From assembly GCF_038022665.1 (NCBI RefSeq), contig NZ_CP150629.1, positions 744,001 through 808,000 of the forward strand: a stretch of DNA of 64,000 bases, written 5' to 3'. Source of the DNA: Methanolobus sp. WCC4. GTDB lineage: Archaea; Halobacteriota; Methanosarcinia; Methanosarcinales; Methanosarcinaceae. The notes beneath the pieces were generated by a model. The model did not search any database. It saw only the letters and a list, made by a program, of their open reading frames with translations, and was not told where the DNA came from. Both the position numbers and the translations under genes were made by a program. Below are positions 14,539-30,708 of this stretch, piece by piece (position 1 is the stretch's first letter; each line of letters begins with the position of its first letter).

Positions 14539-14556
14539 TTTTCTTCCTGCCTCCTC

Positions 14557-15228
14557 TCATATCTTCCAGTTGTTAATTATCTTTGCAGTTATGGCCATTG
14601 AGAGCAAGGACATGACTATGAGTATTATAACCAGCATATTGGCAAGGTCGTTATTCCCTGCCTGGAATGCACTGTATATGGAAATTGACATCGTGTTCGT
14701 TCTTCCGGGAATGTTCCCTGCGAACATCAGCGTAGCACCGAATTCTCCCACTGCTCTGGCAAAACTGAGGACTATTCCTGCAAGTATTCCTTTTTTTGCC
14801 AGGGGGAGGGTAATGAAAAGCGCAGTATCCAGTTCTTTCCTTCCAAGTGTGAAAGCTGCGTATTCGTATTCCCTGTCCACAGCTTCGATGGCAGCAGTTG
14901 TGGTCTTGACCATAAGCGGGAGTGATACAACAAAAGCAGCAATGACCGCTGCCTGCCATGTGAACACTATGCTCCATCCGGTGAGCTCGTAAAGAATGCT
15001 TCCGAGAATTCCCTTCTTCCCGAGCAGAACCACCAGGAGATATCCTGTTACTGTTGGAGGGAGGACAAGGGGTAAGGTCACAAGTATGTCGGCCAGCCAT
15101 TTCCCCCGGAACTCCCTTCTTGCAAGTATGTATGATATCACCATACCTGTGATAGCCACTATCAATGTGGACAGGCCGGCGATCTTCAAAGTTATTAACA
15201 GGGGAAATCCTATCTGGTCGAGCATTTT
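14557..15228 (-). CDS. modB: molybdate ABC transporter permease
   Basis: A permease of about 223 residues from MLDQIGFPLLITLKIAG; an alternative start at 15264 lies inside modA. Several hydrophobic helices are present, such as LSTLIVAITGMVISYILA and LVLPPTVTGYLLVVLLG. The cytoplasmic EAA-type loop AFTLGRKELDTALFITLPLA contacts the ATPase. ARAVGEFGATLMFAGNIPG is typical of ModB/CysT permeases. The start lies 10 nt after the modA stop and the gene ends 18 nt before modC, so the three form one operon. Confidence 0.9.
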   Translation of the reverse strand, partial: KMLDQIGFPLLITLKIAGLSTLIVAITGMVISYILARREFRGKWLADILVTLPLVLPPTVTGYLLVVLLGKKGILGSILYELTGWSIVFTWQAAVIAAFVVSLPLMVKTTTAAIEAVDREYEYAAFTLGRKELDTALFITLPLAKKGILAGIVLSFARAVGEFGATLMFAGNIPGRTNTMSISIYSAFQAGNNDLANMLVIILIVMSLLSMAITAKIINNWKI

Positions 15229-15238
15229 ATTTGTCCAT

Positions 15239-16051
15239 TCAAGCTGTGAATCCGTAGGATTCAAGTATTGCAGTTCCTTCCTCAGAAGTTACGAAATCCA
15301 CAAATTCCTGTGCAGCGTTCTGTTGTGTAGATGATGAGACCAGTGCTATCGGATAGCTTATAGGTGTGACCGTTGGTATGGTTGCCTTTACCTCGATAGT
15401 ACCTTCCTCTGCGGTTGCTGCATCAGTACTGTAGACGAAACCTGCATCAACTTCTCCTCTCTCCACATATACCAGGACCTGTTTAACATCATCAGCCAGC
15501 AATGTCTTTGCTTCAAGTTCATCCCAGAGACCTGCTTCCTCAAGTGCTTCAAGGGTGTATTTTCCTACAGGTGCTGTTTCAGGATTTCCGATGGTGATCG
15601 TCTCAACATCATCTGATGTAAGGTCTTCCGGTCCGGCAATGCCTAGTTCACTGTCAACAGGTGTTATCAGGACGACTGTGTTGGCTGCAAAGTCCTTTCT
15701 TGAGTCTTCATCGATAAGGTCCTGCTCACTTAATATGTTCATGTGATTCTGTGATGCCGATGCGAACACATCGATAGGTGCTCCGCCCTCTATCTGCATC
15801 CTGAGGGTGCCTGATCCTGCGAAGTTGTAATTGACATCGATCTCGGGATTCTCTTCCTCGAATGCCGTTTCCAGTTCTGTGAAAGCCTCGGTAAGGCTTG
15901 CTGCTGCAGACACTGTTATTGTTGTAACCTGATCTGTCTTTGTGTCTGTGTCTACCTGTTCTACGTTGTTGGTATCAGTGCATCCACTTACAAAGACCGC
16001 AAGTACCAGTAGAATTGTGATAGCAAGAATTGACATCTTTTTCATTTCCAT
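15239..16051 (-). CDS. modA: molybdate-binding lipoprotein of an ABC transporter
   Basis: A 270-residue binding protein with a lipoprotein signal: MKKMSILAITILLVLAVFVSGC, where VSGC is the lipobox. VSAAASLTEAFTELETAF, AGSGTLRMQIEGGAPIDVFA and GNPETAPVGKYTLEAL match the ModA family. It captures molybdate (tungstate is possible) outside the membrane and delivers it to ModBC. AAGAAGGT precedes the ATG. The promoter upstream carries a clear TATA box and a ModE-like operator, indicating repression when molybdate is sufficient. Confidence 0.92.
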   Translation of the reverse strand: MEMKKMSILAITILLVLAVFVSGCTDTNNVEQVDTDTKTDQVTTITVSAAASLTEAFTELETAFEEENPEIDVNYNFAGSGTLRMQIEGGAPIDVFASASQNHMNILSEQDLIDEDSRKDFAANTVVLITPVDSELGIAGPEDLTSDDVETITIGNPETAPVGKYTLEALEEAGLWDELEAKTLLADDVKQVLVYVERGEVDAGFVYSTDAATAEEGTIEVKATIPTVTPISYPIALVSSSTQQNAAQEFVDFVTSEEGTAILESYGFTA

Positions 16052-16106
16052 GATATTACCTTCTTTGATATTTCAACTGGAATGAACGATGTGATTTTAT
16101 GTCAGT

Positions 16107-16155
16107 CGTTATGTTCTCCAGTACACAACGCTACTCTTCATGATTCTTTATATAA
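16107..16155 (-). promoter_or_regulatory. modABC promoter with ModE-like operator
   Basis: On the minus strand a TATA box (TTATATAA, 16148-16155) precedes an inverted repeat CGTTGTG-N10-CATAACG at 16107-16130. The repeat is 24 nt overall, with arms matching at 6 of 7 positions. Its length and half-sites closely resemble the E. coli ModE box at modA (a CGTTATAT... and ...CATAACG arrangement). The expected start site, about 27 nt from the TATA centre, falls inside the repeat, a position suited to repression. Confidence 0.65.
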
Positions 16156-16257
16156 GTACCTTTCCTGATGAAACCGGTATAAAGGTATTCAGTCTCTGTA
16201 CGTGTTATTACACAAAGAATGCGTGAGATTAAAAAACTATCCTTAAAAACAGTGAAT

Positions 16258-16279
16258 TGCAGTATCAAAAGATACTGCA
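16258..16279 (-). terminator. hairpin downstream of the cyclophilin gene
   Basis: TGCAGTATC and GATACTGCA form a perfect 9-bp stem with a 4-nt loop, about 30 nt past the cyclophilin stop. On the transcribed strand it is followed by T-rich sequence (TTCACTGTTTTTAAGG). It is a probable terminator that isolates modABC. Confidence 0.6.
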
Positions 16280-16308
16280 GAATGAATTGGAAATATTAAA
16301 AATAGGTT

Positions 16309-16749
16309 TTATTCTTCGACAACGGTGACCTTTTTCATCACATCTTTTGGCTTGATCTTGTTGACGACATCCTGTCCCTCGATAACCTGACCGAAGACTG
16401 TGTGTACACCATCAAGGTGTGGCTGTGGTGAGTGTGTGATGAAGAACTGGCTTCCACCTGTGTTCTTTCCGGCGTGTGCCATGGAGAGTGCACCTGTGCC
16501 GTGTTTACGTGGGTTGCCCTTTGTCTCACACTTGATGGAGTATCCGGGTCCACCTGTTCCGTCTCCTCTTGGGCATCCGCCCTGAATGACAAAGTTTGGT
16601 ATTACCCTGTGGAATGTGAGTCCGTCATAGAAGCCTTCCTTGATGAGCTTCTCAAAGTTAGCCACGGTCTTTGGTGCATCCTTCTCGAACAGTTCCAGAG
16701 TGATTGTTCCTTTGTCGGTTTCGATGATCGCTTTCTTCATGATTTTCAC
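16309..16749 (-). CDS. peptidyl-prolyl cis-trans isomerase, cyclophilin type
   Basis: A 146-residue single-domain cyclophilin without a signal peptide, so cytoplasmic. Motifs are [21 protein letters not shown] near residue 46 (catalytic Arg in FHRV), [20 protein letters not shown] near 86, and [19 protein letters not shown] near 114. It catalyses proline isomerisation during protein folding. AAAGGTG lies before the ATG, and a TATA-like TTTAAGG at about 16779 suggests its own promoter, although it lies only 63 nt after the pilin-like operon on the same strand. Confidence 0.95.
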
Positions 16750-16812: not shown

Positions 16813-18342
16813 TCAATTCAATGCTATCTCAAGCTCATTACTAGTTATGTGCAGGTAGGTGAGAATGGCGCCATTCGCATCATAAATTGCGGTGTATGAG
16901 GATAGATCGGTCTCAATCTTGCCATTACTTTTTTGTTCCCAGGTACACTCGATCGTACCATCCTGTGCCAGGAGCCTCATATAGTGCTGGGTGATATTAT
17001 GCAATGACTGGGTGCGATTTGCATTACTGGCATCATCTGTTATGATCAGGTCTGGAGTTGTTGAATTGGATCCGACGGGACCCCACGAATACTCATTATC
17101 ACTGGTGTCATAATACATCATGTAAGAATCACTGACAAGATCGATCGTGGTATTTGCAACTGCACTATTACCACTACCTATTGAGTTCACGAGAAAACCA
17201 CTACCTGAACTTGTTTCCCATATTTCGGTGACTCCTATTGAGGTGTCAGTATATGTAAGTGCATGAGAAGTACCCAGGGAATTAGCCGCATCGAGCATTA
17301 CTTCATCGCTATCTTTCTTACTAAAGCTATATACTAGGGACTTTCCAGTATTTGATGTGGCAGTTAAGATCGTATCAGATGCTATAAGGTCGCTAGAATC
17401 CCCTTCTACATAATAGAAGAATGAGAAATTGTCAAATGGTTCAGGGTTAGTGTGGTTCAGGGCTGGAATCTCAAAATACGTTGGTAAAGGATTAACCGTT
17501 CCCATTTTTGGTTCTGCGTCCATTTCAATGATAGCAGTCTTATTATCATGGTCCAGGGTTGCAGTGGTGGATGTAAGTGTTTCTGCATAGTCTGCCCATC
17601 CGTCGTAAAAATCGCTTTGGATGTATATCAGGATCTTATTGGCGCTAATGGGGTTCGTGAAATTAGCATTCAGACTTGTATTGGGGTAGAGAATTACAGG
17701 TGTATTTGATGACCTGACTTCGATATTAACATCAGAGCTTCCGCTTATGGTATCATTCCCGCTCACTTTCACGATCGGCAGGGTCATGGTCTCACCATTG
17801 TAATGGAATTCCGGAGGTGAGGTCATTATTGTTCCTCCATCTTCATATTTTGACCAGACTCCACCTCCTTCATATGCTATCTCCCTGTCATCCAGATAGT
17901 ATCTCACAGATCCCATGGAAGCCTCCAGTCCTGCGAAATCCGAATAGGTGCTCTCATAACTTTCCCATGCATTCCAGTATGTGTGATTTTGATAGAAATT
18001 ATCATACCAGGATGAATTAGAGTACAGGAATATGATCTTGATCCTGCTGTCGTTGTAGGAATTGCTGTCGCCGTATACTTCTACATTTTCACCCATGAGG
18101 GTAAGCGTGGTTGTCTGAAGTGGGGATTCGCCAAGTGATGCTTTACTTGTTCTGGAGTCAAGAACAGTAAATGCCTGCTCGACCTTCTGGGACTTTGCCA
18201 TATCCTGCGTGTCACTTATAAGAGGTGCGGTGTACAGGATCATCAGGCCGATAGACAACAGGCTAATTACAAGTATTATTGAGATACCGATAACAGATGA
18301 TACTGCCAGATCATTTATCCGTATACTTTTCAAGTTTTCCAC
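16813..18342 (-). CDS. pilin-like secreted protein, cassette A gene 6 (509 aa)
   Basis: Last and largest gene of cassette A. The N-terminus has a short charged leader and a pilin-like helix: NDLAVSSVIGISIILVISLL, where A|VS fits a class III (prepilin peptidase) processing site. The rest is a large extracellular beta-rich region with many N-x-S/T sequons and no cysteine pattern. YEGGGVWSKYEDGGTIMTSP and the C-terminal ITQHYMRLLAQDG and TYLHITSNELEIALN are shared with the paralogue at 21658, and weakly with gene 5 of each cassette. The likely place is the cell surface, as a pilus or pseudopilus subunit or tip protein; the function is inferred. Confidence 0.7.
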   Translation of the reverse strand: MENLKSIRINDLAVSSVIGISIILVISLLSIGLMILYTAPLISDTQDMAKSQKVEQAFTVLDSRTSKASLGESPLQTTTLTLMGENVEVYGDSNSYNDSRIKIIFLYSNSSWYDNFYQNHTYWNAWESYESTYSDFAGLEASMGSVRYYLDDREIAYEGGGVWSKYEDGGTIMTSPPEFHYNGETMTLPIVKVSGNDTISGSSDVNIEVRSSNTPVILYPNTSLNANFTNPISANKILIYIQSDFYDGWADYAETLTSTTATLDHDNKTAIIEMDAEPKMGTVNPLPTYFEIPALNHTNPEPFDNFSFFYYVEGDSSDLIASDTILTATSNTGKSLVYSFSKKDSDEVMLDAANSLGTSHALTYTDTSIGVTEIWETSSGSGFLVNSIGSGNSAVANTTIDLVSDSYMMYYDTSDNEYSWGPVGSNSTTPDLIITDDASNANRTQSLHNITQHYMRLLAQDGTIECTWEQKSNGKIETDLSSYTAIYDANGAILTYLHITSNELEIALN

Positions 18343-18356
18343 CTTTTCCTCTCTTA

Positions 18357-19130
18357 TTAGTCGATTGTAACTTTCATGGGTGAATAAATTACATATACAT
18401 CAATATTGGTAGGGTAACTTTTACTGCAGTTTATAGTTCTATTATTACTATCTTCCATAACTATCTGCATCTGCAGGCTTTCATTCAGGTATCTGCCCCA
18501 TGCTTCAAAGTAGTCACTTGTGATCGATGCGTTCATCATCGAGACATTTTCATATTTGTATACTTTCTTACTTCCAGAATCTGCGGTCACCCTGGAAAGC
18601 CCGGAGCCTGATATTGAGTAAGAACCTCCGATAAGGGCAACAGGTATTACCATGACATCATTTGCAAAGGTAAAACGTGGCTCAGATACCATCACTGCTT
18701 CACCCTCTTCATATTTTGCCCATACTCCTGTATTCTCATAGGAAACAATGGTATCATGGTAGCTATTCTCTATATTCTTAACTTCGTAACCAACGGCAGA
18801 CTGCATCTCGGTGCTACCTGCGGAAGAATTCCATACCTGCAGATCAATACTGATATAGTTGTCTCCAGCTACGGACAGAGCCCCTCCGTACATTTTTAGT
18901 TCAACGGATTGAGAAGGAGCATTTCCAAAAACAACTTTGTTCATGTTCATGGCCATGACCTCAAAGCTCTGTCTTATATTCTCAGTGTGCTGCACTTCCT
19001 GCATATCTTCCAGCATGGGTACTCCAGCCACCACGATTATTCCGGTTGCGAGAACAATTATGCTTAAAATAATGCTGTAATCCACCATTTCCGATACAGC
19101 AGCATTGTCTGTGAATATATTACCTTTCAT
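18357..19130 (-). CDS. pilin-like secreted protein, cassette A gene 5 (257 aa)
   Basis: The leader DNAAVSEMVDYSIILSIIVL resembles class III signal peptides, with a hydrophobic helix followed by ~220 extracellular residues. NIRQSFEVMAMNMNKVVFG, SQSVELKMYGGALSV and YENTGVWAKYEEGEAVMVSE are matched closely in the paralogue at 23136. The VWAKY...MVS segment also matches gene 6, so genes 5 and 6 look like older paralogues. Many N-glycosylation sequons are present. It lies 14 nt upstream of gene 6 and 16 nt after gene 4. It is probably an envelope-located filament component; no enzymatic motif is seen. Confidence 0.7.
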   Translation of the reverse strand: MKGNIFTDNAAVSEMVDYSIILSIIVLATGIIVVAGVPMLEDMQEVQHTENIRQSFEVMAMNMNKVVFGNAPSQSVELKMYGGALSVAGDNYISIDLQVWNSSAGSTEMQSAVGYEVKNIENSYHDTIVSYENTGVWAKYEEGEAVMVSEPRFTFANDVMVIPVALIGGSYSISGSGLSRVTADSGSKKVYKYENVSMMNASITSDYFEAWGRYLNESLQMQIVMEDSNNRTINCSKSYPTNIDVYVIYSPMKVTID

Positions 19131-19146
19131 GCGTCCCTTCTCTATC

Positions 19147-19623
19147 TCAATGTACTTCTACCATGTTTGTGGCAGGATCATAATACAAAGCAAACTCGCT
19201 TGACCCGCTGTACAATTTAACAGATGCTACATCGACCTCATGTACCTGATAAGGCACTTTTACCCGTGTAGCATCCTTCCCATGGGATTCGAATATGATC
19301 TCATTGGTCTGGTTCGATATCTCCATTGAATATTGTTGTCCTGCAATCTCATCAGGAAGCGGTAGCTTAAAGAAAAAGCTTCCAACCTCTCCTCCCGCAC
19401 TTGTTGTTATCTGTACGGCGGTATCGATGTTTGACATCTGCAATGCTATGTCATTTCCGTGTATCTCGAACTCGTCTCTCATGATGGTATGCTCCGCTCT
19501 GTCCATCATATCGTAGAAAGAACTTATCACGACCATCATGGTTATTATCGTGATGGATAATGTCAATATGAAGCCCACTGAGATGGATACTGCTCTCTCG
19601 TCATCCTTGAATTTCCGGATCAT
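19147..19623 (-). CDS. pilin-like secreted protein, cassette A gene 4 (158 aa)
   Basis: The N-terminus KDDERAVSISVGFILTLSI is the most pilin-like of the cassette: a charged leader, A|VS, then a glycine-containing helix much like haloarchaeal PilA pilins. The ~120-residue remainder includes RAEHTIMRDEFEIHGNDIAL, nearly identical in the paralogue at 23928 (EQTVMRDEFEIHANDIAV). Its ATG overlaps the stop of gene 3 by 4 nt, indicating translational coupling. The size and signal suggest a major or minor pilin, an inference from architecture. Confidence 0.75.
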   Translation of the reverse strand: MIRKFKDDERAVSISVGFILTLSITIITMMVVISSFYDMMDRAEHTIMRDEFEIHGNDIALQMSNIDTAVQITTSAGGEVGSFFFKLPLPDEIAGQQYSMEISNQTNEIIFESHGKDATRVKVPYQVHEVDVASVKLYSGSSEFALYYDPATNMVEVH

Positions 19624-20483
19624 ATATGCCCCTTCGGTAAAGTAATCGGTATTGTCGCGTTGACCTCAAGGTGTCCGTTCTTGTTCAGCTTCATTGTGCT
19701 TTCAACAACATGGATTCTCTCGGCGTAGTACGAATCACCGTTGCGAAGGCCTCCTTCCATACGGAAGGTGCCCATGGAATCACTTCCGTTCATGAACGTG
19801 AGGCTGTATATTTGATTTGCTGTCTGGTTGTTGAAGTAGAACTCAAAGGAGTTATTTCCGTTAATCTCATTTCCTGTGATGTTAAGGTTGTAGATTGTAT
19901 CGCTATTATTCCAATAATGTGGTAAATTGTTGTTGTCATAGACGGTGACATTAACATTACCACTCGAGTTGAAGATACTGGCTAGCCATATTCTACTACC
20001 TGATTGGTTATTGGCCTCTATTGTTAACTTACTTGATTCATTCCCAAGGGTTGATGCGTTCAATTCAAATAAATTAAATCTATCAGTATGATTTATTCTT
20101 TCAACTACGATCCAGTTGTCGTTTCCATCAACAAGACCATTTTCAGTGAAGTAGGGATTCTGTAATGTGCCTGTATCAAGAGTACATATAAATCCTGAGA
20201 GTGAATAGCTCTTTATCATTTTTTCGGAGTAGTTTGCCATGTAGGCATTGAAAGCTGTAGTGTTAGCTCCGTAATTTGAGTCTGCATAGGCTTTCTCATG
20301 AGCTTCAATGGTGCTGTCAACAACATTCGAATAATCAAAGACATTTGTCTCGATACTGGACTCTGAGGCGGTGTTACTCGCATAGACTATGTTGTTAAGC
20401 ATGACAGTCAGGACTACGATACCTATGGCGATGATGAAACCGGATATCAATATGATCTGCCCTGATTCGTCTATTCTTTTCAT
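19620..20483 (-). CDS. pilin-like secreted protein, cassette A gene 3 (287 aa)
   Basis: DESGQIILISGFIIAIGIVV gives a G|Q processing site and hydrophobic helix, like Q-starting class III substrates of methanogens. VLTVMLNNIVYASNTASESS follows and is conserved in the paralogue at 24404 (VLTIMLNNVIYASNIASESS). The distal part is asparagine- and serine-rich with many glycosylation sequons and reads as beta-structured. It ends in ...PITLPKGHI, like the paralogue's ...PISLPGRIS. The gene overlaps gene 4 by 4 nt and lies 12 nt after gene 2. The function is unknown beyond a probable surface location. Confidence 0.7.
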   Translation of the reverse strand: MKRIDESGQIILISGFIIAIGIVVLTVMLNNIVYASNTASESSIETNVFDYSNVVDSTIEAHEKAYADSNYGANTTAFNAYMANYSEKMIKSYSLSGFICTLDTGTLQNPYFTENGLVDGNDNWIVVERINHTDRFNLFELNASTLGNESSKLTIEANNQSGSRIWLASIFNSSGNVNVTVYDNNNLPHYWNNSDTIYNLNITGNEINGNNSFEFYFNNQTANQIYSLTFMNGSDSMGTFRMEGGLRNGDSYYAERIHVVESTMKLNKNGHLEVNATIPITLPKGHI

Positions 20484-20495
20484 GTTAACACCTGG

Positions 20496-21107
20496 TTACA
20501 TTCTCCACAAAGTCAGTTTCACGTCAATGAGGTTATAGAAATCCGTACTCTTATCAGCATCAGGTATGCCTGTGGTGTATTGGAATTGGGTTGGATTTGA
20601 CATGTCTGAATTTGACAGTAATACCCTTCGGGATACAACAACTGCATTATCCGAAGGCTCTCCGTTGAAAATGTAGGGAAGGGTCATGATACTCCCTGTA
20701 TCACTGATCATGGCAAATTCGACATTGTGTGCAATACCTTTGGGCGTAATGATGTCCATCAAAATATTTGCAGTCGAGCTACCTGTAAGGATGCTGTTCT
20801 CTTCAGATACATAATCGGTAGAGTTCCATGCGTATTCTTCCCCATTCCAGTTCAGTATGTCATCCTTGAGGCTGGAATTCTGTCCGGAAGTGCTGTGGTC
20901 CAGTACAGAGAGCATATCCTGTGCCAGGGTCTGAAGCTGTGCCTCTATGTGTGCGTTTGCAGTAGAAGATGTAAGTGGAGTAAGTGAAGTCGCCTGTACC
21001 GTGAAAACTATAACTCCTGTGATAAGGATGAGGGTTATCAAAGATTCCAGGGTGTGTAGCTGGGCTGATGTATCGGTTTTTATCCTGCGTGGTGATTTTC
21101 CGTCCAT
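20496..21107 (-). CDS. pilin-like secreted protein, cassette A gene 2 (203 aa)
   Basis: A basic leader RRIKTD is followed by TSAQLHTLESLITLILITGV, with A|Q as the likely class III cleavage site and a glutamate a few residues in, as in type IV pilins. The block TSSTANAHIEAQLQT is identical in the paralogue at 25285, as are GIAHNV, PYI.NG.PSDNAV and the terminal LTLWRM/MTLWRM. Such a perfectly kept block after the helix suggests a conserved interaction surface. It starts 3 nt after gene 1 and is part of the same operon. Confidence 0.75.
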   Translation of the reverse strand: MDGKSPRRIKTDTSAQLHTLESLITLILITGVIVFTVQATSLTPLTSSTANAHIEAQLQTLAQDMLSVLDHSTSGQNSSLKDDILNWNGEEYAWNSTDYVSEENSILTGSSTANILMDIITPKGIAHNVEFAMISDTGSIMTLPYIFNGEPSDNAVVVSRRVLLSNSDMSNPTQFQYTTGIPDADKSTDFYNLIDVKLTLWRM

Positions 21108-21110
21108 CTA

Positions 21111-21587
21111 TTACCACACCCTCACGAATAATGTTGCCTGGACTTTATCTCCTGTGCTTTCATTTTCTACCAGCACGATCCGTTTTGTCTGGCCAATATT
21201 CCCCTGTAAGGGCAAAGGTTTACCTGCGGAATGATCAATACTTCCTGCTGTAATGTTCTGCATTGTGATATTGAGTTCATAGGTAAGGAATGAGCTATTC
21301 ATACCATAGTGGTCGATAGTGCCTTCATAATTTGCATTCATCTGGGTGAAAAAGTTGTCAACCTTTTTACTGTTAAGCAGATTTGGTGTCCGGGGGTTCC
21401 CCGCACTCGTGCTTTGTTCTATCACATTTGTCGATATCCTGTCAGCGATCAACGTGACTTCGTCTGAGTTGGACTGGAAAGGGGTGAAAAGCCCTGCCGT
21501 ATATGAGAATACAAATATCACACTTGTAAGGAAGATAGCGATGCCTATTAGATAATCTATATGCATCTGTCCATGGTCATCTCGCAT
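21111..21587 (-). CDS. pilin-like secreted protein, cassette A gene 1 (158 aa)
   Basis: First gene of cassette A. DDHGQMHIDYLIGIAIFLTS gives a predicted G|Q cut and an acidic residue at mature position 5, the classic pilin pattern. TAGLFTPFQSNSDEVTLIAD is almost identical in the paralogue at 25902. The C-terminal GQTKRIVLVEN and FVRVW also match. A TATA box lies ~28 nt before the ATG, implying a very short or absent 5' leader. A surface filament subunit is likely, based on signal type and context. Confidence 0.75.
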   Translation of the reverse strand: MRDDHGQMHIDYLIGIAIFLTSVIFVFSYTAGLFTPFQSNSDEVTLIADRISTNVIEQSTSAGNPRTPNLLNSKKVDNFFTQMNANYEGTIDHYGMNSSFLTYELNITMQNITAGSIDHSAGKPLPLQGNIGQTKRIVLVENESTGDKVQATLFVRVW

Positions 21588-21611
21588 AATACCACATATA
21601 ATATAATCAAG

Positions 21612-21625
21612 TTATTATATAAAAA
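21612..21625 (-). promoter_or_regulatory. promoter of pilin-like cassette A
   Basis: The forward-strand string TTATTATATAAAAA occurs here and, identically, before cassette B at 26394-26407. On the minus strand it gives TTTTTATATAATAA. In both copies it lies the same distance (~25 nt) upstream of the first ATG, so each cassette carries its own near-leaderless promoter. Confidence 0.7.
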
Positions 21626-21657
21626 GTGATTGTAAATTACTTGGTTTCTGTTCTCAT

Positions 21658-23109
21658 TTAATTCAATGTCGCCACAAGGTCATTTCGGCTCACATGAAGA
21701 TAGGTGATACTTCCTGGCATTCCGTCATAGTATAATGTAAGGGTTGATTCATCGTAATCCACTGGATCGGATTTTCCAGGCTGCTGGAGATTGAACACTA
21801 CTGATCCCTCCATTGTGAGAAGTTTGAGGTAGTGTTGTGTAAGATCATACAATGCAACATCCTCTCCGCCCGTGTAATCGACATCCGGTGCTATACTGAT
21901 TGATGTATTGTTTGCCCATGAGAAATCACTGCTCTCTTCATAATTGAGTGTCAATGTTGTGGACAGGAGATCAACCGTGGCAGACTGGTCCTCTTTCGTA
22001 CCATCAACTGTGAATTCACTGTTCCCCTGCCATGTTTCTGTCCCTCCTCCCGGAGCAAGGTCTACGTATACAAGACCGATCTCTAGCTGGTTAGCACCAC
22101 CTTTCTTCGCAAGTGTGTATGTCAATGTCTTTGTCCCTGAAGTGGCAGTTATCTCATAGTTACTTGGGTTCAGTCCCTGTGAGGCCCTTGCTTCAAGGTC
22201 GATTGAGAAGTTGTAGATGGGTGCAGGGTTGTCCTGATTTACAGCACCTATCTTGAAAGCAGATTTGAGTGTATCCTTGCCCATCGCAGGTATCACTTCT
22301 AGCTCAATAACTGCAGTCTCATTCGTATCGTCGGTTACTGCACTGGCATAAGCCAGGGAATTTGCATAATCCGCCCATGCATTGTAGAACTCGCTTTTAA
22401 TGTAAATGATCACTTTGTCGGATGTAAGGGGGTTGGTTCTTCTTGAATCTGTGGCAGGGTCAGGATATAGAACTACCGGCATATTGTCTGAGCTAACTGT
22501 AACAGCAACATCAGATATGCCGCTGGATGTTGCATCTCCTTCTATTCTCATTACCGGTAGTGTAAGTGTTTCCCCATTATAGTGGAATTCCGGTGGAGAT
22601 ATCATCACAGACTTCCCATTTGGATATTTGGACCAGACTCCTCCTCCCTCGTAACCTATAACTCTGTCATCATTGGTGAAAACGATGCTTCCCATAGATG
22701 AATTGAATTCATTCATGCCTGTTTCGTTGGTATACGAGTTCCAGCTTCTCCATCTGTATCTGTTGTTCTTGAAGCTGCTATACCATGAGGCATCCATATC
22801 GACAGAAATAATGACGATCTGGCTTTCATTGTAAGATGCATTGTCACCGTTGACCTGTATGTCCCCATCCATCATAGAGAATGATGTTGTCTGGCTTGGT
22901 GATTCCCCGAGTGCCACCTTACTGGTCCTGGAATCGAACACTGTAAAGGCCTGCTCGACCTTCTGGGCATTTGCCATATCTTCCATCTCGTATATCGTCG
23001 GTACACCGTAAAGGAAGATCACACTTATCGATGTGATAGTGAGCGCAAGTATCACTATCATTCCCATTAGTGCTGAAACGGCTTTTTCTGATACAAGGAA
23101 CTCTTTCAT
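21658..23109 (-). CDS. pilin-like secreted protein, cassette B gene 6 (483 aa)
   Basis: Paralogue of the gene at 16813. The N-terminus VSEKAVSALMGMIVILALTI has the A|VS class III pattern and a membrane helix. AQKVEQAFTVFDSRTSKVAL is shared nearly word for word with the A copy (QKVEQAFTVLDSRTSKASL), and so is YEGGGVWSKYPNGKSVMISP. A long extracellular region follows, ending with LTQHYLKLLTMEGS and TYLHVSRNDLVATLN. It closes cassette B; 70 nt further on, cassette A begins with its own promoter. Its size and end position suggest a tip or adhesin-like component, but that is inference. Confidence 0.7.
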   Translation of the reverse strand: MKEFLVSEKAVSALMGMIVILALTITSISVIFLYGVPTIYEMEDMANAQKVEQAFTVFDSRTSKVALGESPSQTTSFSMMDGDIQVNGDNASYNESQIVIISVDMDASWYSSFKNNRYRWRSWNSYTNETGMNEFNSSMGSIVFTNDDRVIGYEGGGVWSKYPNGKSVMISPPEFHYNGETLTLPVMRIEGDATSSGISDVAVTVSSDNMPVVLYPDPATDSRRTNPLTSDKVIIYIKSEFYNAWADYANSLAYASAVTDDTNETAVIELEVIPAMGKDTLKSAFKIGAVNQDNPAPIYNFSIDLEARASQGLNPSNYEITATSGTKTLTYTLAKKGGANQLEIGLVYVDLAPGGGTETWQGNSEFTVDGTKEDQSATVDLLSTTLTLNYEESSDFSWANNTSISIAPDVDYTGGEDVALYDLTQHYLKLLTMEGSVVFNLQQPGKSDPVDYDESTLTLYYDGMPGSITYLHVSRNDLVATLN

Positions 23110-23135
23110 GATATGGCCTCTAATTGACTATCTTT

Positions 23136-23918
23136 TCACTCAATGCTAATGCTCATCGGGGAAACTGTTACCAGTACGTCTATGTTCTGGCTGTAGTTCT
23201 TCTCCATACTCACAGTCTGTGTAGTTGTATTGATGTTTGTTTGCTGCATGCCAATTGAATCACTTAGATATCTCTCCCAGGCTTCGTAATACTCGCTGGA
23301 TATTGTCATTTCGACCCTGGATACATTCTCAAATCTTTCTACTGCAAGCTGCCCGCCTTCTGATATCACTCTTATCAGTCCTGAACCTGACACTCCGTCC
23401 ACCCCTGTGATGGTGACCATGGGTATGACCATTGAACTGTTGTCGTACGTAATGATGGGCTTGGTGATCATCACCGATCTACCTGGTGGGTATCTGGCCC
23501 ATGTTCCTGTATTCTCATAGGCTATTGTGGTATCCTTGTATTCGTTCTGTATCATGCGTAATTGCTTCTCGTAGGAAACGGTTTCAGTGGCTGCTGTCGT
23601 ATCGTTCCACTTATCCATGGTGATGTTCATGTAGCTATCACCGGTGATGTATACTCCGCCGCCATACATCTTCAGCTCGACGGATTGTGATGGTGCCTTG
23701 CCTGACGCTATCTTGTTCATGTTAGGAGCAAGTACGGAGAAACTCTGTTTGATATTCTCAATGTGCCCTGATTCTTTCATATGTTCGATAAGGGGGTATC
23801 CTGCAAGGCCGATGACACTTATAGCCAGAAGCATTATTCCAAGCGTGATGACGAAATCGACTACTTCGGTGAGTGCATCTTCGGAAGTGAATATGTCCCT
23901 GTTTCCTGTCCTTCTCAT
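23136..23918 (-). CDS. pilin-like secreted protein, cassette B gene 5 (260 aa)
   Basis: TSEDALTEVVDFVITLGIML is the leader and start of the helix; the A|L junction is less canonical than in its siblings. NIKQSFSVLAPNMNKIASGK, SQSVELKMYGGGVYITGDSY and YENTGTWARYPPGRSVMITK align with the A copy at 18357. The ending NIDVLVTVSPMSISIE matches NIDVYVIYSPMKVTID. It lies 26 nt upstream of gene 6. It is a probable envelope protein; no enzymatic motif is visible. Confidence 0.7.
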   Translation of the reverse strand: MRRTGNRDIFTSEDALTEVVDFVITLGIMLLAISVIGLAGYPLIEHMKESGHIENIKQSFSVLAPNMNKIASGKAPSQSVELKMYGGGVYITGDSYMNITMDKWNDTTAATETVSYEKQLRMIQNEYKDTTIAYENTGTWARYPPGRSVMITKPIITYDNSSMVIPMVTITGVDGVSGSGLIRVISEGGQLAVERFENVSRVEMTISSEYYEAWERYLSDSIGMQQTNINTTTQTVSMEKNYSQNIDVLVTVSPMSISIE

Positions 23919-23927
23919 TTCAGTTCC

Positions 23928-24407
23928 TCAGGATATTATTATGGCATTGTTGCCGGAGTCGTATTGTATGGTATACTCTCCCTTCGGGCTTTGTAATGTA
24001 GTTGAAAACAGCACTGTGTTCTCTGTATAGTAGGGTACTTTTACCATTGTCTCATCCCTGCCCTGTGAAACGAACACGATATCTTTCGTACTGTTATCGA
24101 ACCCAATCGAATACGGCTTCCCGGCTATCCTTTCAGGAAGAGATAGCTCATATTCCAGTTCGCCGATATCTGACCCGGAGCTGGTGGCAGTTCCAACCAT
24201 TGTATCAATGGTTGCGATACGTACTGCTATATCATTGGCATGTATCTCGAACTCGTCTCTCATGACCGTTTGTTCTGCTGTGTTCATCAGGGAATAGAAT
24301 GAACTGAGTATCGTTACCAATATGATAACGGTGATCGAGAATGTGAGGATGAATCCCACTGTGATGGATACTGCGCTGTCATCCTCTTTCAGGCTACGTA
24401 ACTTCAT
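23928..24407 (-). CDS. pilin-like secreted protein, cassette B gene 4 (159 aa)
   Basis: KEDDSAVSITVGFILTFSIT is a textbook archaeal pilin leader and helix with an A|VS cut. MRDEFEIHANDIAVRIATID is the best conserved block relative to the A copy at 19147. The ATG overlaps the gene 3 stop by 4 nt, exactly as in cassette A, so gene order and junction type survived the duplication. Position 9 nt before gene 5 supports one transcript. Confidence 0.75.
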   Translation of the reverse strand: MKLRSLKEDDSAVSITVGFILTFSITVIILVTILSSFYSLMNTAEQTVMRDEFEIHANDIAVRIATIDTMVGTATSSGSDIGELEYELSLPERIAGKPYSIGFDNSTKDIVFVSQGRDETMVKVPYYTENTVLFSTTLQSPKGEYTIQYDSGNNAIIIS

Positions 24408-25264
24408 GATATCCTCCCCGGTAAAGATATTGGAAGGCTGCGTGTGATACTCATGTCACTGGAATGCATGGTGACTGTAGGATTCGCAACAAAGTACCTA
24501 GCGAACATGAAAGGTTCCCCTGTTGTGAGGTTGCCTGAGAAAGTACAGTATGCTGCAGCATTACTTCCTCCGAGCACGTTGATGGAATAATCATTACCTT
24601 CTGTATAATCGTCAAAATCAAAACCCACTGACGTACTATTGTCAATCAGTTCGCCTATTATGTCTATCTGCGTGAGGCTCATCTCTCTTTGCTCGATAAC
24701 TGATGACAGACCGTCTGTAACAGTGATGTTCACACTTCCGCTGGAGTTGTAGAGTTCAATGGACCAGAGGAGCCCTGTACTATTGGTTGCAGTGATCATC
24801 AGGCTGTTAGAGCTGTTCCCCAGTTTGGATACATTGCTGATCTCCATCAGGAATGTATTGGTGATATTGACATTGCTGACGATGGTCCAGTCATCTTCTC
24901 CACTGGCAAGACCATTCTGTGTCATGTATGCCTCATAAAGTGCGTAGTCCTCGAAATTGAATGTATGTCCTGTGATGGCATAGCTCTTAGAAGCCGTTTC
25001 AGCATAGGCTTCCAGTTCCTGTTCGAATGTACTGTTATCAAAAGGACCGCTTTCAGTAGCGGACTGGTATGCATTCTCGTATGCCTGTGTTGTCATCTCA
25101 AGGCCATTGGAGATATCGTAGCGTGCAGTATCAATGCTTGACTCCGATGCAATGTTACTTGCATATATCACATTGTTCAACATGATGGTGAGTACTACTA
25201 TTCCTACACCTATTGCAAATCCTGCAAGGAGTAATAATTGTGCACTGTCATCAGGTCTTTTCAT
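24404..25264 (-). CDS. pilin-like secreted protein, cassette B gene 3 (286 aa)
   Basis: DDSAQLLLLAGFAIGVGIVV gives an A|Q class III site. LNNVIYASNIASESSIDTAR follows, matching the A copy at 19620. The distal domain carries many N-x-S/T sequons (for example FNSSGSVNIT-type stretches in both copies). Divergence is high outside the N-terminal ~60 residues, so the exposed part evolves faster than the filament-core part. The gene overlaps gene 4 by 4 nt. Confidence 0.7.
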   Translation of the reverse strand: MKRPDDSAQLLLLAGFAIGVGIVVLTIMLNNVIYASNIASESSIDTARYDISNGLEMTTQAYENAYQSATESGPFDNSTFEQELEAYAETASKSYAITGHTFNFEDYALYEAYMTQNGLASGEDDWTIVSNVNITNTFLMEISNVSKLGNSSNSLMITATNSTGLLWSIELYNSSGSVNITVTDGLSSVIEQREMSLTQIDIIGELIDNSTSVGFDFDDYTEGNDYSINVLGGSNAAAYCTFSGNLTTGEPFMFARYFVANPTVTMHSSDMSITRSLPISLPGRIS

Positions 25265-25284
25265 TTTTTCACGCTCCAGTGTTC

Positions 25285-25899
25285 CTACATTCTCCAGAGT
25301 GTCATTTTGACATTGACTATATTATAGAAGCCACTGCTGTTATCTGCATCAGGTATTCCTGTATTCGTCATGAATATCGATGCGTTACCGATATCATTCT
25401 CTGAAAGGACTACTTTTTTTGAGACTATTACTGCATTATCTGACGGATCACCATTGTAGATATAAGGCCGTGTGATAGTCACTCCGTCATCACTGACCCA
25501 TGTGAAATGTACATTGTGCGCTATTCCTCTGGGGATGGCAATGAATTCGAACATCTCTGCGAGTGAACTGTTGGTGAGTGTTATGTTATTTGAATCCCTT
25601 GAATCATATGCAGTGCCGTTCCATACGTATTCGATGCCGTCCCAGTTCATGACATCATCCTTCAGGTCAGAGTCATGACTGAGCCCTGTATAAGAAAGGA
25701 CGTTAAGCATGTCCTGGCCCATGGTCTGTAACTGGGCCTCTATGTGTGCATTAGCTGTAGATGATGTAAGGGGTGTGAGGGATGTAGCCTCCACTGCAAA
25801 TACTATCACTCCTACCATGATAAGTGAAGCCATTACAGCTTCGAGTGAATGCATCTGGCCACAGGTGTCCAGCTTATTTGAAAAGATACCTTTGAACAT
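25285..25899 (-). CDS. pilin-like secreted protein, cassette B gene 2 (about 204 aa)
   Basis: I chose the ATG at 25899 (MFKGIFSNKLDTCGQMHSLE), 2 nt after the gene 1 stop, because the A copy has the same junction; a GTG at 25908 is the alternative. G|QMHSLEAVMASLIMVGVI is the predicted cleavage site and helix. TSSTANAHIEAQLQT is identical to the A copy, and the protein ends in MTLWRM. The single cysteine sits in the leader. It is part of the same operon as genes 1 and 3-6. Confidence 0.72.
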   Translation of the reverse strand: MFKGIFSNKLDTCGQMHSLEAVMASLIMVGVIVFAVEATSLTPLTSSTANAHIEAQLQTMGQDMLNVLSYTGLSHDSDLKDDVMNWDGIEYVWNGTAYDSRDSNNITLTNSSLAEMFEFIAIPRGIAHNVHFTWVSDDGVTITRPYIYNGDPSDNAVIVSKKVVLSENDIGNASIFMTNTGIPDADNSSGFYNIVNVKMTLWRM

Positions 25900-25901
25900 T
25901 G

Positions 25902-26369
25902 TTACCACACCCTGAATGAGATGATGGCTGTCTCTCTGGCACCAGTGTCGGTATATCTCAACAGGACCACTCTTTTTGTCTGTCCGATATTAACACCCGA
26001 TGGCATTTTCTTCCCTGCCATATTGATGGTCCCCGTTTCGTTCTCAAGTGTCACATTGAGGTCATATGTGATGTAGGATCCTTTCATACCCAGGTCAGTG
26101 ATGGTATTTTCATAGTTGGTATCAAGTTCCGTAAGGAATGTATCTACCTTTGTACTGTTCACCATGTTTGGGACGTTCTCATCACCTTCACTGAGTATCT
26201 TTTCTACAAGGACGAGTGATGTCCTGTCGGCAACAAGGGTAACTTCATCTGAGTTGGACTGGAAAGGTGTGAATATCCCTGCAGTATAGTTGAACACAAA
26301 AGCAATTGCAAACAGGAAAATAGTGATGCTGATAAGATAATCTATAGTGATCTGTCCTTTGTTATCCAT
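25902..26369 (-). CDS. pilin-like secreted protein, cassette B gene 1 (155 aa)
   Basis: The first gene of the whole array. DNKGQITIDYLISITIFLFA has a G|Q cut and Asp at mature position 5, matching the Q-x-x-x-[DE] start of methanogen class III substrates. YTAGIFTPFQSNSDEVTLVA is shared with the A copy at 21111. A GAGGG lies before the ATG, and the TATA box is ~28 nt upstream, so the leader is very short. It is divergent from mre11 (137-nt gap). Confidence 0.75.
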   Translation of the reverse strand: MDNKGQITIDYLISITIFLFAIAFVFNYTAGIFTPFQSNSDEVTLVADRTSLVLVEKILSEGDENVPNMVNSTKVDTFLTELDTNYENTITDLGMKGSYITYDLNVTLENETGTINMAGKKMPSGVNIGQTKRVVLLRYTDTGARETAIISFRVW

Positions 26370-26393: not shown

Positions 26394-26407
26394 TTATTAT
26401 ATAAAAA
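26394..26407 (-). promoter_or_regulatory. promoter of pilin-like cassette B
   Basis: The same 14-mer as before cassette A (TTATTATATAAAAA on the forward strand), 25 nt from the first ATG. The following A/T-rich, TGTAA-containing bases also resemble those at cassette A, so the promoter was duplicated with the genes. Confidence 0.7.
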
Positions 26408-26506: not shown

Positions 26507-28048
26507 ATGGATGAGATAAGGATAGTCCACACAGGGGACACACATCTTGGATACCGGCAGTACCACAGTGATGTGCGCCGGAAGGATTTCTTCAATGCTT
26601 TTTCCAGTGTGGTGGATGATGCTATCGATATGGGTGTGGACGCTGTAGTTCATGCAGGTGATCTGTTCGATTCCAGGAATCCGACCCTTGATGATATTCT
26701 TGATGCCATGGGTCTTTTCTCAAAACTAAAAGATGCAGGTATTCCTCTGCTTGCAATTGTCGGTAACCATGAGAGCAAACAGAGCACTCAGTGGCTTGAC
26801 CTTTACAGCAGCCTCGGTCTTGTGACCCGTCTTGGGCCTGAGCCTTATGTGTTGGGGGGTGTGGCAGTGTACGGTATCGACAGTGTGGCAAAGACAAAGA
26901 TCCCGCTGTTCGATTACTCCATGTTCGACGGAAAAGGAACAGCTGCGCGATATAATCTGCTTGTGATGCACCAGCTTGTAAAACCCTTTGCATTCGGTGA
27001 ATGGGACATCAAAGAGGTCATTGATTCAATTCCTTTCGACATCCATGCAGTGCTTCTGGGAGATAATCACAAATACGAGATCACAAAGGTGGATGATGCC
27101 TGGGTTACCTATGCAGGCAGTACTGAAAGGAACAGTACTGCTGAACGTGAACCCCGGTCATATAATATAGTGACTATTGGGGATGGCGGTATAGAGATAA
27201 GCAGGCGCACGATCGAGACCCGTGATTTCGTTTTCATACCGGTTACCCTCGCCGAAGGTTCCAATGCCCTTGATGATGTGTTCTCCACGATAAAGGAGCA
27301 TGACATTACCGACAAAGTAGTATTTGTAGAACTTTCAGGCGATACCATGTCAAAGCTGGACCTCAGTGAGGTTGAGAAGTTCCTTCTGTCAAGGGGTGCG
27401 CTGGTCCCGGGAATAAAGGACCTTCGTTCTGGCGTTGACTCGCTGGCAGACTCTTCCCTGAAAGTCTCTTTCTCAGACCCTGATGATGTAGTTAAGGAAG
27501 AGATAAGGAAAATGAACCTTACATCCGGCGGTCTGCTGCTTGATGAGATAATACGTGACCCTCAGTTCGTCAAGACAAGGGTTGGTGACGAGGCGGAGGC
27601 AAAATTGGGAGAATTACTTGAAAGGATCGATTTCTCTGTCCCGGTTCCGGTCAGTTCACATGTTCCGATTGCAGACGAAGTGATGGAGAAAGAGGCCGAT
27701 ATTTCCGGGGAAAAGGTCGATCATGAGTTACCAGTTGATGATCAGTTTGCTCCTGATGTAGTAAAGGAAGTCTCATTGGAGATGGACGTTCCGGAGAAGC
27801 AGCCGGCTGAAACCATTGAAACTGTTGGAACCGTTGATACCGTTGAAACTTCAAAAGATGCCGTGTCTGGTCAGTTGATCAATGAAGAGAAGGACCCGGG
27901 GAGGATATCTGATGTCGATGAGGACCAAGAAGGACCTTCTGCTATCTCTCCTGAAGAGGTCGCAGGGGATGCAGAAACTTCTGATGAAGGGAAGAAAGAA
28001 GATAGTTCTGTAAAACCACGACAATATAATCTGGGTGATTACCTGTGA
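26507..28048 (+). CDS. mre11: DNA double-strand break repair nuclease Mre11
   Basis: A 513-residue Mre11. The N-terminal phosphoesterase motifs are in order: HTGDTHLG near residue 7, HAGDLFDSRNP near 46, VGNHESK near 82, and GDNHKYE near 185 (the position of the usual GHxH motif). A capping region follows to ~380. The last ~120 residues are acidic, repetitive and probably disordered (ETIETVGTVDTVETSKD). It is an endo/exonuclease that works with Rad50 at DNA ends. The stop overlaps the rad50 start as TGATG, so the two are translationally coupled. Confidence 0.93.
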   Translation: MDEIRIVHTGDTHLGYRQYHSDVRRKDFFNAFSSVVDDAIDMGVDAVVHAGDLFDSRNPTLDDILDAMGLFSKLKDAGIPLLAIVGNHESKQSTQWLDLYSSLGLVTRLGPEPYVLGGVAVYGIDSVAKTKIPLFDYSMFDGKGTAARYNLLVMHQLVKPFAFGEWDIKEVIDSIPFDIHAVLLGDNHKYEITKVDDAWVTYAGSTERNSTAEREPRSYNIVTIGDGGIEISRRTIETRDFVFIPVTLAEGSNALDDVFSTIKEHDITDKVVFVELSGDTMSKLDLSEVEKFLLSRGALVPGIKDLRSGVDSLADSSLKVSFSDPDDVVKEEIRKMNLTSGGLLLDEIIRDPQFVKTRVGDEAEAKLGELLERIDFSVPVPVSSHVPIADEVMEKEADISGEKVDHELPVDDQFAPDVVKEVSLEMDVPEKQPAETIETVGTVDTVETSKDAVSGQLINEEKDPGRISDVDEDQEGPSAISPEEVAGDAETSDEGKKEDSSVKPRQYNLGDYL

Positions 28049-30708
28049 TGCTGAAACGCCTGAAGGTCGAGAATATACGGAGCTATAAAGAGCTTGATAT
28101 TGCTTTTAAGAACGGGGTTACCGTTGTCTCAGGTGTCAATGGCAGTGGTAAGTCCAGTCTGCTCGAATCATGTTTCACAGGACTCTTCGGTAGTAAGACA
28201 CTGGATAAGGAGTTCGTGCTCTCTGATATCATTACAAAGGGTGCTTCAAAGGCATCCATATTGCTGGAGTTCGAGCAGAAAGGTCATGATTATTCTGTGG
28301 AGCAATCCTTCAGGAACGACCCTGAGAAGGGACGTGCTTCCAATACGAAGTCCGTCTTCAAGAAGGACGGGGAAATAATCTTCGATCAGGCAACGAGGAC
28401 GTATGAGGCAGTTCACTCCCTCCTGAATATGGATGAAGAGGCTTACAGGAATTGTGTTTACATCCGTCAGGGTGAGATCGATGTCCTTATCAACTCCAAA
28501 CCGAAGGACCGGCAGAAGATGATAGATGATCTTCTCCAGCTTGGTAAACTGGAGGAGTACCGTGAGAGGGCTTCAAGTGCCAGAGTGGGAGTTGGTCGAC
28601 ATCAGCGTGATAATGAACGACGTATAAAGGAAGTTACCGCTGAGATACTGGAAGTAGAGGACAGTGACCCTAATGGCAGGCTGGCTGCCCTGAGAACGAG
28701 GTCCAAAGACATAGATGCTGAAATGGGCTCTTTGAATGAGAAAAGGGACCGCACTCTTTCCAGAATGGATGAGGTCACAAAGAAGATCTCCGAACTGAAT
28801 GAACTCGCCGGTAAAAAGGAATCTGTGGGCCAGCAGATAAAGGAACTGACCGACAGGCGTTCGAAGTCCTTCATTTCCATAGATTCCATATCAAAGGATA
28901 TTCGCTCACGTAAGGAACTCCTTGAGACAAAACATACAAGAATCTCTGAGCTTGGTGTGAAGCTGGAAACCTCTCCCGGGAATATCGATGCGGTTGTCTC
29001 AAAGCTTGATACAGATGAGCGTTCTTTACGCGATGATATAGGTGAGATGAAAAGTAAACGTGCGGTCCTGGAGAAGGATGTTCTTAATATCGTTCGTTCG
29101 GTGAAGGATATCGAGAAACAGCTAAAGACCCTTGAGGATTCAGGGAAGGATATCGATTCTAAGATCAAGGCCATCCGGTCCGGGATAGAAAAGCATCTAC
29201 TTAGCGTAGAGGAACTTGGGAACAAGCGTGTGGAAGTTGTTGCCAGGGTTGATTCTCTGGGTCTCAGCCTTGAAAAACTGGAGAATATCGATGATGTCCT
29301 GGACCTTGTAAATGACCAGCAGAAGCGGTTCCATGGGCTTGAGGCGGAACTCAAAGCGAAGATCTCCGAGATAAGAAAACGGCTTGAGAGGTCAAAGCAA
29401 CTTCTTGATGCAGGAAAGTGCCCTACGTGCGGTCAGGACCTTAAAGGTTCATGTGTGGAGGAATCTACCGTTTCTGACAATGAGGAGATGGACAGACTGG
29501 AAGCCGAACTTTCAGAGCTTAAAGTAAAGCAGGAAGAGGCAGGGGCAAGGGTAGAGAAGGTTAAGGCGGCACGCGGTTGCAGGACCGAGATAGAGTCCAT
29601 CGACAGGGATATCGTTTCAGCTAAGGAAGCTATCGAAAGGGATGAGACGCGGATAGATGAGTACAGCCTTCATATAAAGGAAGATGAAGGCAGGATAAAA
29701 GAACTGATGTCCGGGAAAGAGGCTCTTGAAAAGACCCTTGTTGAGACCAGGGAGAAGGTTCAGCAGATGGGAGAGTCCGAAGGGACTGTTCAGAAAGAGC
29801 ACGCCGGTCTTCTTGAAAGTCTCGGACTTGCTCGTGAGATGCAGAAACTACTTGCAGACTCGGACCTGATCGATTCTGAGATAAAACAGATGGATGAGAA
29901 GATAACCAGCATTCAGGAAATGATCTCTCTCTTTGACGGGCAGATAGGAGAGAAGAAAGTGTCTCTGGATGAGCTCGATAAGAAGATGGGCGAGTTCGAT
30001 AAGAAGGAACTCGAATCACTTAACCGGGACTACGGGTCCGCATTCAAGCTGATCAATTCAGAGATCGACAAGTTGAAGGTCGAGAAGGACGATGTCATGA
30101 AGAAGGCCGGAATGGCGGAGAATGACCGAAAACGTCTTTCAGACCTGAAAAAGAACCTGAACATCCTGAAGAACAAAGGTGAATATCTCAATGCTGTGTA
30201 TTCGGATGCAGAGGAGCTTGAGAGTATGTACATACGTATACGTGCACAACTTCGTTCCAGTAATATACAGACCCTTGACAGGCTGATAAATGAGATCTTC
30301 TCTTTTATGTACTCTAACAATGCGTATTCCCATGTGATGCTGGATCCCGATTACAACCTTACCGTGTTCGAGAAGGATGGCACCGCCCTCGAACCGAAAC
30401 TTCTCAGTGGCGGTGAGCGTGCTTTGTTCAATCTGGTGCTTCGCTGTGCGATCTATCGTCTGTTGTCCCTTGGAACCTCATCGAACGATGGTGCAGGACT
30501 TCCGCCTCTTATTATGGATGAGCCGACCGTTTTCCTTGACAGGGGACATGTGCACCAGTTGATAAAGCTGATCGATATGATGAGGGATATAGGGGTGGCG
30601 CAGATACTTATCGTATCCCATGACGAATCGCTTATCGATTCTGCAGACAATGTATTTGCTGTGGAGAAGGATCCGGTGACAAATACCTCCGGCATATATG
30701 CCCGGTGA
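28048..30708 (+). CDS. rad50: DNA double-strand break repair ATPase Rad50
   Basis: About 886 residues from the ATG that overlaps the mre11 stop. Walker A GVNGSGKSSLLES lies near residue 31, then two long coiled coils flank the zinc hook CPTCGQ (cysteines near 458 and 461). The C-terminal lobe has signature LLSGGERALFNLVLR near 785 and Walker B PLIMDEPTVFLDRG near 825. Rad50 dimerises by the hook and by ATP-bound heads to tether and open DNA ends for Mre11. The length is typical of archaeal Rad50. Confidence 0.95.
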   Translation: MLKRLKVENIRSYKELDIAFKNGVTVVSGVNGSGKSSLLESCFTGLFGSKTLDKEFVLSDIITKGASKASILLEFEQKGHDYSVEQSFRNDPEKGRASNTKSVFKKDGEIIFDQATRTYEAVHSLLNMDEEAYRNCVYIRQGEIDVLINSKPKDRQKMIDDLLQLGKLEEYRERASSARVGVGRHQRDNERRIKEVTAEILEVEDSDPNGRLAALRTRSKDIDAEMGSLNEKRDRTLSRMDEVTKKISELNELAGKKESVGQQIKELTDRRSKSFISIDSISKDIRSRKELLETKHTRISELGVKLETSPGNIDAVVSKLDTDERSLRDDIGEMKSKRAVLEKDVLNIVRSVKDIEKQLKTLEDSGKDIDSKIKAIRSGIEKHLLSVEELGNKRVEVVARVDSLGLSLEKLENIDDVLDLVNDQQKRFHGLEAELKAKISEIRKRLERSKQLLDAGKCPTCGQDLKGSCVEESTVSDNEEMDRLEAELSELKVKQEEAGARVEKVKAARGCRTEIESIDRDIVSAKEAIERDETRIDEYSLHIKEDEGRIKELMSGKEALEKTLVETREKVQQMGESEGTVQKEHAGLLESLGLAREMQKLLADSDLIDSEIKQMDEKITSIQEMISLFDGQIGEKKVSLDELDKKMGEFDKKELESLNRDYGSAFKLINSEIDKLKVEKDDVMKKAGMAENDRKRLSDLKKNLNILKNKGEYLNAVYSDAEELESMYIRIRAQLRSSNIQTLDRLINEIFSFMYSNNAYSHVMLDPDYNLTVFEKDGTALEPKLLSGGERALFNLVLRCAIYRLLSLGTSSNDGAGLPPLIMDEPTVFLDRGHVHQLIKLIDMMRDIGVAQILIVSHDESLIDSADNVFAVEKDPVTNTSGIYAR

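Follow-up and report, generated by a model that had tools for sequence, protein, structure and literature searches.

Twelve pilin-like genes, arranged as two copies of one six-gene order, lie side by side in the window, by which we mean the whole 64,000-nucleotide stretch of DNA from Methanolobus sp. WCC4 that was analysed. The question raised by this locus is what two such sets do in one cell. To our knowledge, most archaeal pilin genes are uncharacterised. The analysis presented below leads to the view that the two copies probably encode alternative tip sets of minor pilins for a single type of pilus.

Two copies of a six-gene cassette

In agreement with the preliminary description, all twelve genes are present on the minus strand at 16813-26369 and form two copies, named here c1 and c2, with the gene order and protein lengths that it had reported. 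In terms of Pfam families the order of genes A to F in each copy is DUF7287-DUF7288-DUF7261-DUF7266-DUF7289-DUF7289/DUF7308. The features are as follows (E-values in brackets).

26394..26407, minus strand: TATA-type sequence TTTTTATATAATAA upstream of c1, core 36 nt before the gene-A ATG
25902..26369, minus strand: c1 gene A, 155 aa, DUF7287 pilin-like, PF23958 (9.1e-33)
25285..25908, minus strand: c1 gene B, 207 aa from GTG, DUF7288, PF23959 (1.5e-45)
24404..25264, minus strand: c1 gene C, 286 aa, DUF7261-like, PF23922 (9.5e-5; 23.1 of 27 bits)
23928..24407, minus strand: c1 gene D, 159 aa, DUF7266, PF23928 (5.2e-13)
23136..23918, minus strand: c1 gene E, 260 aa, DUF7289, PF23960 (2.8e-25)
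21658..23109, minus strand: c1 gene F, 483 aa, DUF7289 + DUF7308
21612..21625, minus strand: TATA-type sequence TTTTTATATAATAA upstream of c2, core 36 nt before the gene-A ATG
21111..21587, minus strand: c2 gene A, 158 aa, DUF7287 (1.5e-36)
20496..21107, minus strand: c2 gene B, 203 aa, DUF7288 (2e-43)
19620..20483, minus strand: c2 gene C, 287 aa, DUF7261-like (1e-5; 26.3 of 27 bits)
19147..19623, minus strand: c2 gene D, 158 aa, DUF7266 (5.5e-10)
18357..19130, minus strand: c2 gene E, 257 aa, DUF7289 (2.3e-28)
16813..18342, minus strand: c2 gene F, 509 aa, DUF7289 + DUF7308

The assignment of gene C is to be read as DUF7261-like, its score in both copies being slightly under the Pfam cut-off of 27 bits. 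The start of c1 gene B is uncertain: translation from the GTG gives 207 aa, and an internal ATG at 25899 gives 204 aa. A 4-nt overlap joins genes C and D in c1 (24404-24407) as well as in c2 (19620-19623), as had been described. The proteins encoded by the two copies are 55, 56, 36, 47, 48 and 44% identical for A to F, respectively, and in BLAST comparisons the clear match of each gene was its counterpart in the other copy, except for the related pair E/F. The 14-base sequence TTTTTATATAATAA is identical at both sites and has just these two copies within the window. The presence of the same TATA-type sequence at equal spacing before each gene A indicates that c1 and c2 are probably separate transcription units.

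The cassettes of Methanolobus may have a fixed chromosomal site next to mre11-rad50. Here these two genes (window 26507-30708) diverge from the cassette, and the same surroundings recur in many loci of Methanolobus and Methanomethylovorans; in the Methanolobus loci that we fetched, c1 adjoins mre11-rad50 wherever the sequence covers that end. A peptidyl-prolyl isomerase gene and a molybdate-type ABC transporter (window 13420-16749) lie downstream of c2, and also downstream in several relatives.

That the cassette is kept in two versions was borne out by a tree of gene B (DUF7288), in which c1 and c2 fall into separate, well-supported clades inside Methanolobus (17 and 13 rows, respectively), with Methanolobus as the nearest named relatives. 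The two copies thus go back to one old duplication, which was followed by separate evolution without homogenisation. In a genome of a different family (locus L062, genome G009) the whole six-gene cassette has been duplicated in tandem independently.

Pilin character of the products

An early hydrophobic stretch, within the first ~40 residues and behind a short charged leader, was confirmed for all twelve products. The class III signal peptide pattern (short charged leader, small residue, hydrophobic helix) is predicted in 12 of 12 proteins by pattern. A stretch reported as identical between the gene-B products of c1 and c2, TSSTANAHIEAQLQT, is indeed so. The further claim that N-termini are more conserved between the copies holds for A to F, and strongly for C and D only: identities of the first 65 residues versus the rest are 62/50, 60/54 and 58/29% for A to C, and 59/38, 51/47 and 49/43% for D to F. 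The Pilin_N family was matched by 13 of the 19 F homologues, with a best E-value of 1.1e-5.

Structure models were available for B and F out of the six cassette proteins. The AlphaFold model of c1 B (mean pLDDT 80) has N-terminal helices (residues 15-72) and a beta head, and that of c1 F (mean pLDDT 79) a long helix (8-66) followed by a large beta-rich region. When these models were compared with solved structures by Foldseek, the best match of B was no better than E 0.15, and F gave weak matches of jelly-roll type and no convincing solved pilin; searching the profiles of E and F against the sequences of solved structures gave nothing convincing either. The bacterial tip pseudopilin families of type II secretion and type IVa pili (GspHIJK, FimU-PilVWX) had no Pfam match in any of the twelve proteins, nor an NCBIfam match in the six c1 proteins. 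The initial reading of the cassette as a pilin set is supported by the helix-plus-beta-head models of B and F, by Pilin_N in the F homologues and by linkage to TadA-TadC genes in haloarchaea (see below). Four Pilin_N proteins are encoded elsewhere in the genome, which is a single contig of 2.85 Mb, and these could be major pilins.

Distribution in relatives and the candidate assembly motor

DUF7288 is present in 261 of 393 Halobacteriota genomes; Haloferax volcanii carries it too. A profile check across archaeal genomes, as the preliminary description had proposed, showed that the six-gene order is kept in the neighbourhoods examined. In 8 of the 11 haloarchaeal loci examined, which were read by profile matches only because they are GC-rich and long opposite-strand ORFs mask genes, TadA-TadC lies directly upstream of the cassette on the same strand; TadA-TadC also adjoins the cassette at locus L065. 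With the cassette behind TadA-TadC, these haloarchaeal loci are laid out as archaeal type IV pilus operons. DUF7288 had no match in the sampled genomes of two genera (g6 and g7), which we took as Methanosarcina because the control Methanosarcina acetivorans likewise lacks it. In other methanogens (L064, L071, L061, and also L068 and L072) the proteins of slot C or slot D are far larger, at 587-907 aa and 597 aa, respectively. Three of these enlarged proteins contain Ig-like Big_7 domains, which fits an exposed, adhesive role.

As noted before, the window contains neither an assembly ATPase nor a platform protein, and the sole prepilin peptidase match of the genome (Peptidase_A24, 897135-897446) lies outside it. 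A genome-wide check for TadA returned, in addition to the archaellum locus, five clear TadA genes. The cassettes are not linked to the archaellum-type locus (L011), which is at 28 kb of the genome. The best motor candidate (L010) is located at genome 1794627-1798968, about 1 Mb from the cassettes, and consists of a TadA gene at 1796827-1798968 with TadC beside it. Close orthologues of this TadA (63-81%) are present in 24 of the 25 cassette-bearing genomes of the order, the present one included, and in none of the 16 cassette-free genomes of g6 and g7, which yielded paralogues of no more than 50% and nothing closer. These 16 negatives come from two related genera, so that the co-occurrence rests on few independent events; with this reservation it is suggestive of a motor of the L010 type. 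In one further locus (L095) an orthologue of the candidate TadA lies near the F-E end of a cassette. Counting against the candidate are that no motor gene is near the cassettes in this genome and that, leaving aside the archaellum ATPase, the genome has four TadA genes in addition to the candidate.

The one cassette-bearing genome outside this pattern, G172, belongs to another genus and its motor is broken. In this genome (L059, L114, L115) the TadA of the motor is split into three pieces and its TadC is shortened; of two cassettes, one has a split gene A and lacks D-F, and the other is intact. These fragments reflect either decay or assembly errors. Motor copy number is normally one, whether a genome has one, two or three cassettes; in a fragmented genome (G247) the motor appears at two places. 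Assigning the motor from a tree of the ATPases alone was tried and given up: its deep branches were unresolved and long branches came together, the haloarchaeal cassette-linked TadA proteins did not group firmly with the candidate and the placement of L065 was unsure. The basis of the assignment is therefore co-occurrence together with linkage. At L013 (genome 2375000-2394000), and likewise at L104 and L105, a different TadA-TadC pair has one DUF7289 protein of ~300 aa behind it, apparently as a smaller pilus system.

Many Methanolobus genomes contain a third version of the cassette, diverged and with five genes, A'-E', and no F, which is accompanied by a giant gene whose protein has Ig-like and VWA domains. 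In the genomes searched for both, the giant gene was present in all 15 with B' and in none of the 21 without B', two of the latter giving a VWA-sized match only. B' and the giant gene lie side by side in almost all cases, and about 60 kb apart in G192. A strict rule by which the adhesin goes with the third version only fails at L031, where a giant gene follows a standard cassette, showing that the link is not absolute. Both giant proteins that were scanned contain VWA and Big_1 domains; the PilC/PilY family, the mark sought for a PilY1-type tip adhesin, had no match in either. The N-terminus of the giant adhesin resembles an ordinary signal sequence. In one genome (G343, L118) A'-E' and the giant gene are at the mre11 site, where they replace c1, and four genomes (G090, G163, G192 and G207) have the third version only and have kept the motor. 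The occurrence of both states inside each of four genera speaks for several events of gain or loss. The present genome has no B' and, with two adhesin queries, no giant adhesin gene; the second of these queries matched in ten other Methanolobus genomes.

Proposed function of the two cassettes

On these grounds we regard it as rather likely that c1 and c2 are alternative minor-pilin tip sets of a euryarchaeal type IV pilus, served by one shared motor and conferring two binding specificities. Each cassette would encode a full complement of minor pilin-like subunits, A-F, whose precursors would be cleaved by the prepilin peptidase of the genome and assembled by a TadA/TadC pair from another locus, for which genome 1794627-1798968 is the best candidate. 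By analogy with bacterial minor-pilin sets (PMC9109919, PMC8179133, PMC9934059), A-E may prime pilus assembly, and F, the largest exposed subunit, may be displayed at the adhesive tip, a place that the giant adhesin would take in the third version. The two tip sets, c1 and c2, would be transcribed separately, share one motor and give the pilus two binding specificities. The analogy with a minor-pilin tip complex is plausible, and the linked giant adhesin of relatives strengthens it.

Comparison with known systems bears on this proposal. The census of archaeal type IV pili by Makarova et al. (2016) covers pilin sets of this kind and proposes that motors work with pilin sets encoded elsewhere (PMC4858521). 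The arrangement resembles its clade 2 PilB4-type/subclade 4C systems, with a TadA/TadC pair and several different pilins; unlike the euryarchaeal systems described there, however, the complete set is here tandemly duplicated and far from any motor. Its arCOG02911, a duplication-prone minor pilin of 250-550 aa, fits the DUF7289 proteins E and F by length range and duplication only. In H. volcanii the pilB1-C1 operon (ATPase, platform and pilin) is needed for full adhesion and PilB3-C3 can rescue the loss of PilB1-C1 (PMC6491452), which indicates that motors can serve other pilin sets. Paralogous sets are also known from Myxococcus xanthus, which has three minor-pilin/PilY1 operons per genome that are proposed to give pili differing by the PilY1 paralog at the tip (PMC9109919). 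These can be likened to the third version, which travels with a VWA adhesin. The M. xanthus system is bacterial, though, and no sequence relation of its subunits to A-F was detected; the adhesin of the relatives studied here matched VWA and Ig-like domains only, and motor sharing is something we infer. The minor pilins PilB (VWA) and PilC (lectin) of Streptococcus sanguinis bear adhesive modules and are modelled at the tip (PMC8179133, PMC9934059), and such grafted modules recall the Ig-like domains in slots C and D of relatives. PilC was also a structural match of F, weak and below significance (E 0.047, probability 0.20); in contrast to PilB and PilC, F has no known module recognisable by sequence.

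Three other explanations have to be weighed. A-F might not be a tip set at all and instead co-polymerise along the shaft, c1 and c2 then building two whole different filaments. Makarova et al. propose that the filament may contain all of the extra pilins as structural components (PMC4858521), and each cassette has its own promoter-like sequence. We nevertheless consider this unlikely, given the possible major pilins among the four Pilin_N proteins elsewhere in the genome, the large and modular nature of F (and of C in some relatives), and the linkage of a giant adhesin to one cassette version.

It is very improbable that the cassettes encode, in place of an adhesive pilus, a type-II-secretion-like exporting pseudopilus or a bindosome-like complex at the surface. 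The presence of several different pilin-like proteins in each cassette does recall pseudopilin sets, and secreted adhesin genes adjoin related cassettes, yet no bacterial pseudopilin family was matched, the giant adhesin apparently starts with an ordinary N-terminal signal sequence, and no substrate-binding protein is constantly linked, ModA being downstream in part of Methanolobus only. There is also little chance that c2 is a redundant or decaying duplicate with no separate role. Tandem duplication is common, as the independent case at L062 illustrates, but c1 and c2 are both intact, with promoter-like sequence and gene order kept, and they represent two clades retained in many Methanolobus species.

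Returning to the alternative tip sets, Pfam names exist for the families and the census (PMC4858521) covers such sets, which means that the cassette in itself is no novelty. In a literature search that excluded most subscription journals we found no description of the tandem pair, of the third version with its adhesin or of the same-site replacement, and no paper naming DUF7261, DUF7266, DUF7287, DUF7288 or DUF7289, the only match being for arCOG02911.

The comparison of relatives suggests an exchange of minor-pilin sets around one assembly motor that is retained, whereby a cell may alter what its pilus sticks to. We put forward tentatively, as a possibility for the Methanosarcinaceae as a whole, that one motor is combined with a stock of tip cassettes that can stand in for one another (c1, c2 and the adhesin-linked third version) and are duplicated and replaced at a fixed site, the one beside mre11-rad50 in Methanolobus, which would amount to archaeal tip-adhesin switching. 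The two natural copies, the adhesin-tied third version and the single candidate motor make tip composition and motor sharing testable in a methanogen. They also allow Pfam families whose function is unknown to be given a working annotation; of these, DUF7288 occurs in about two thirds of the sampled Halobacteriota.
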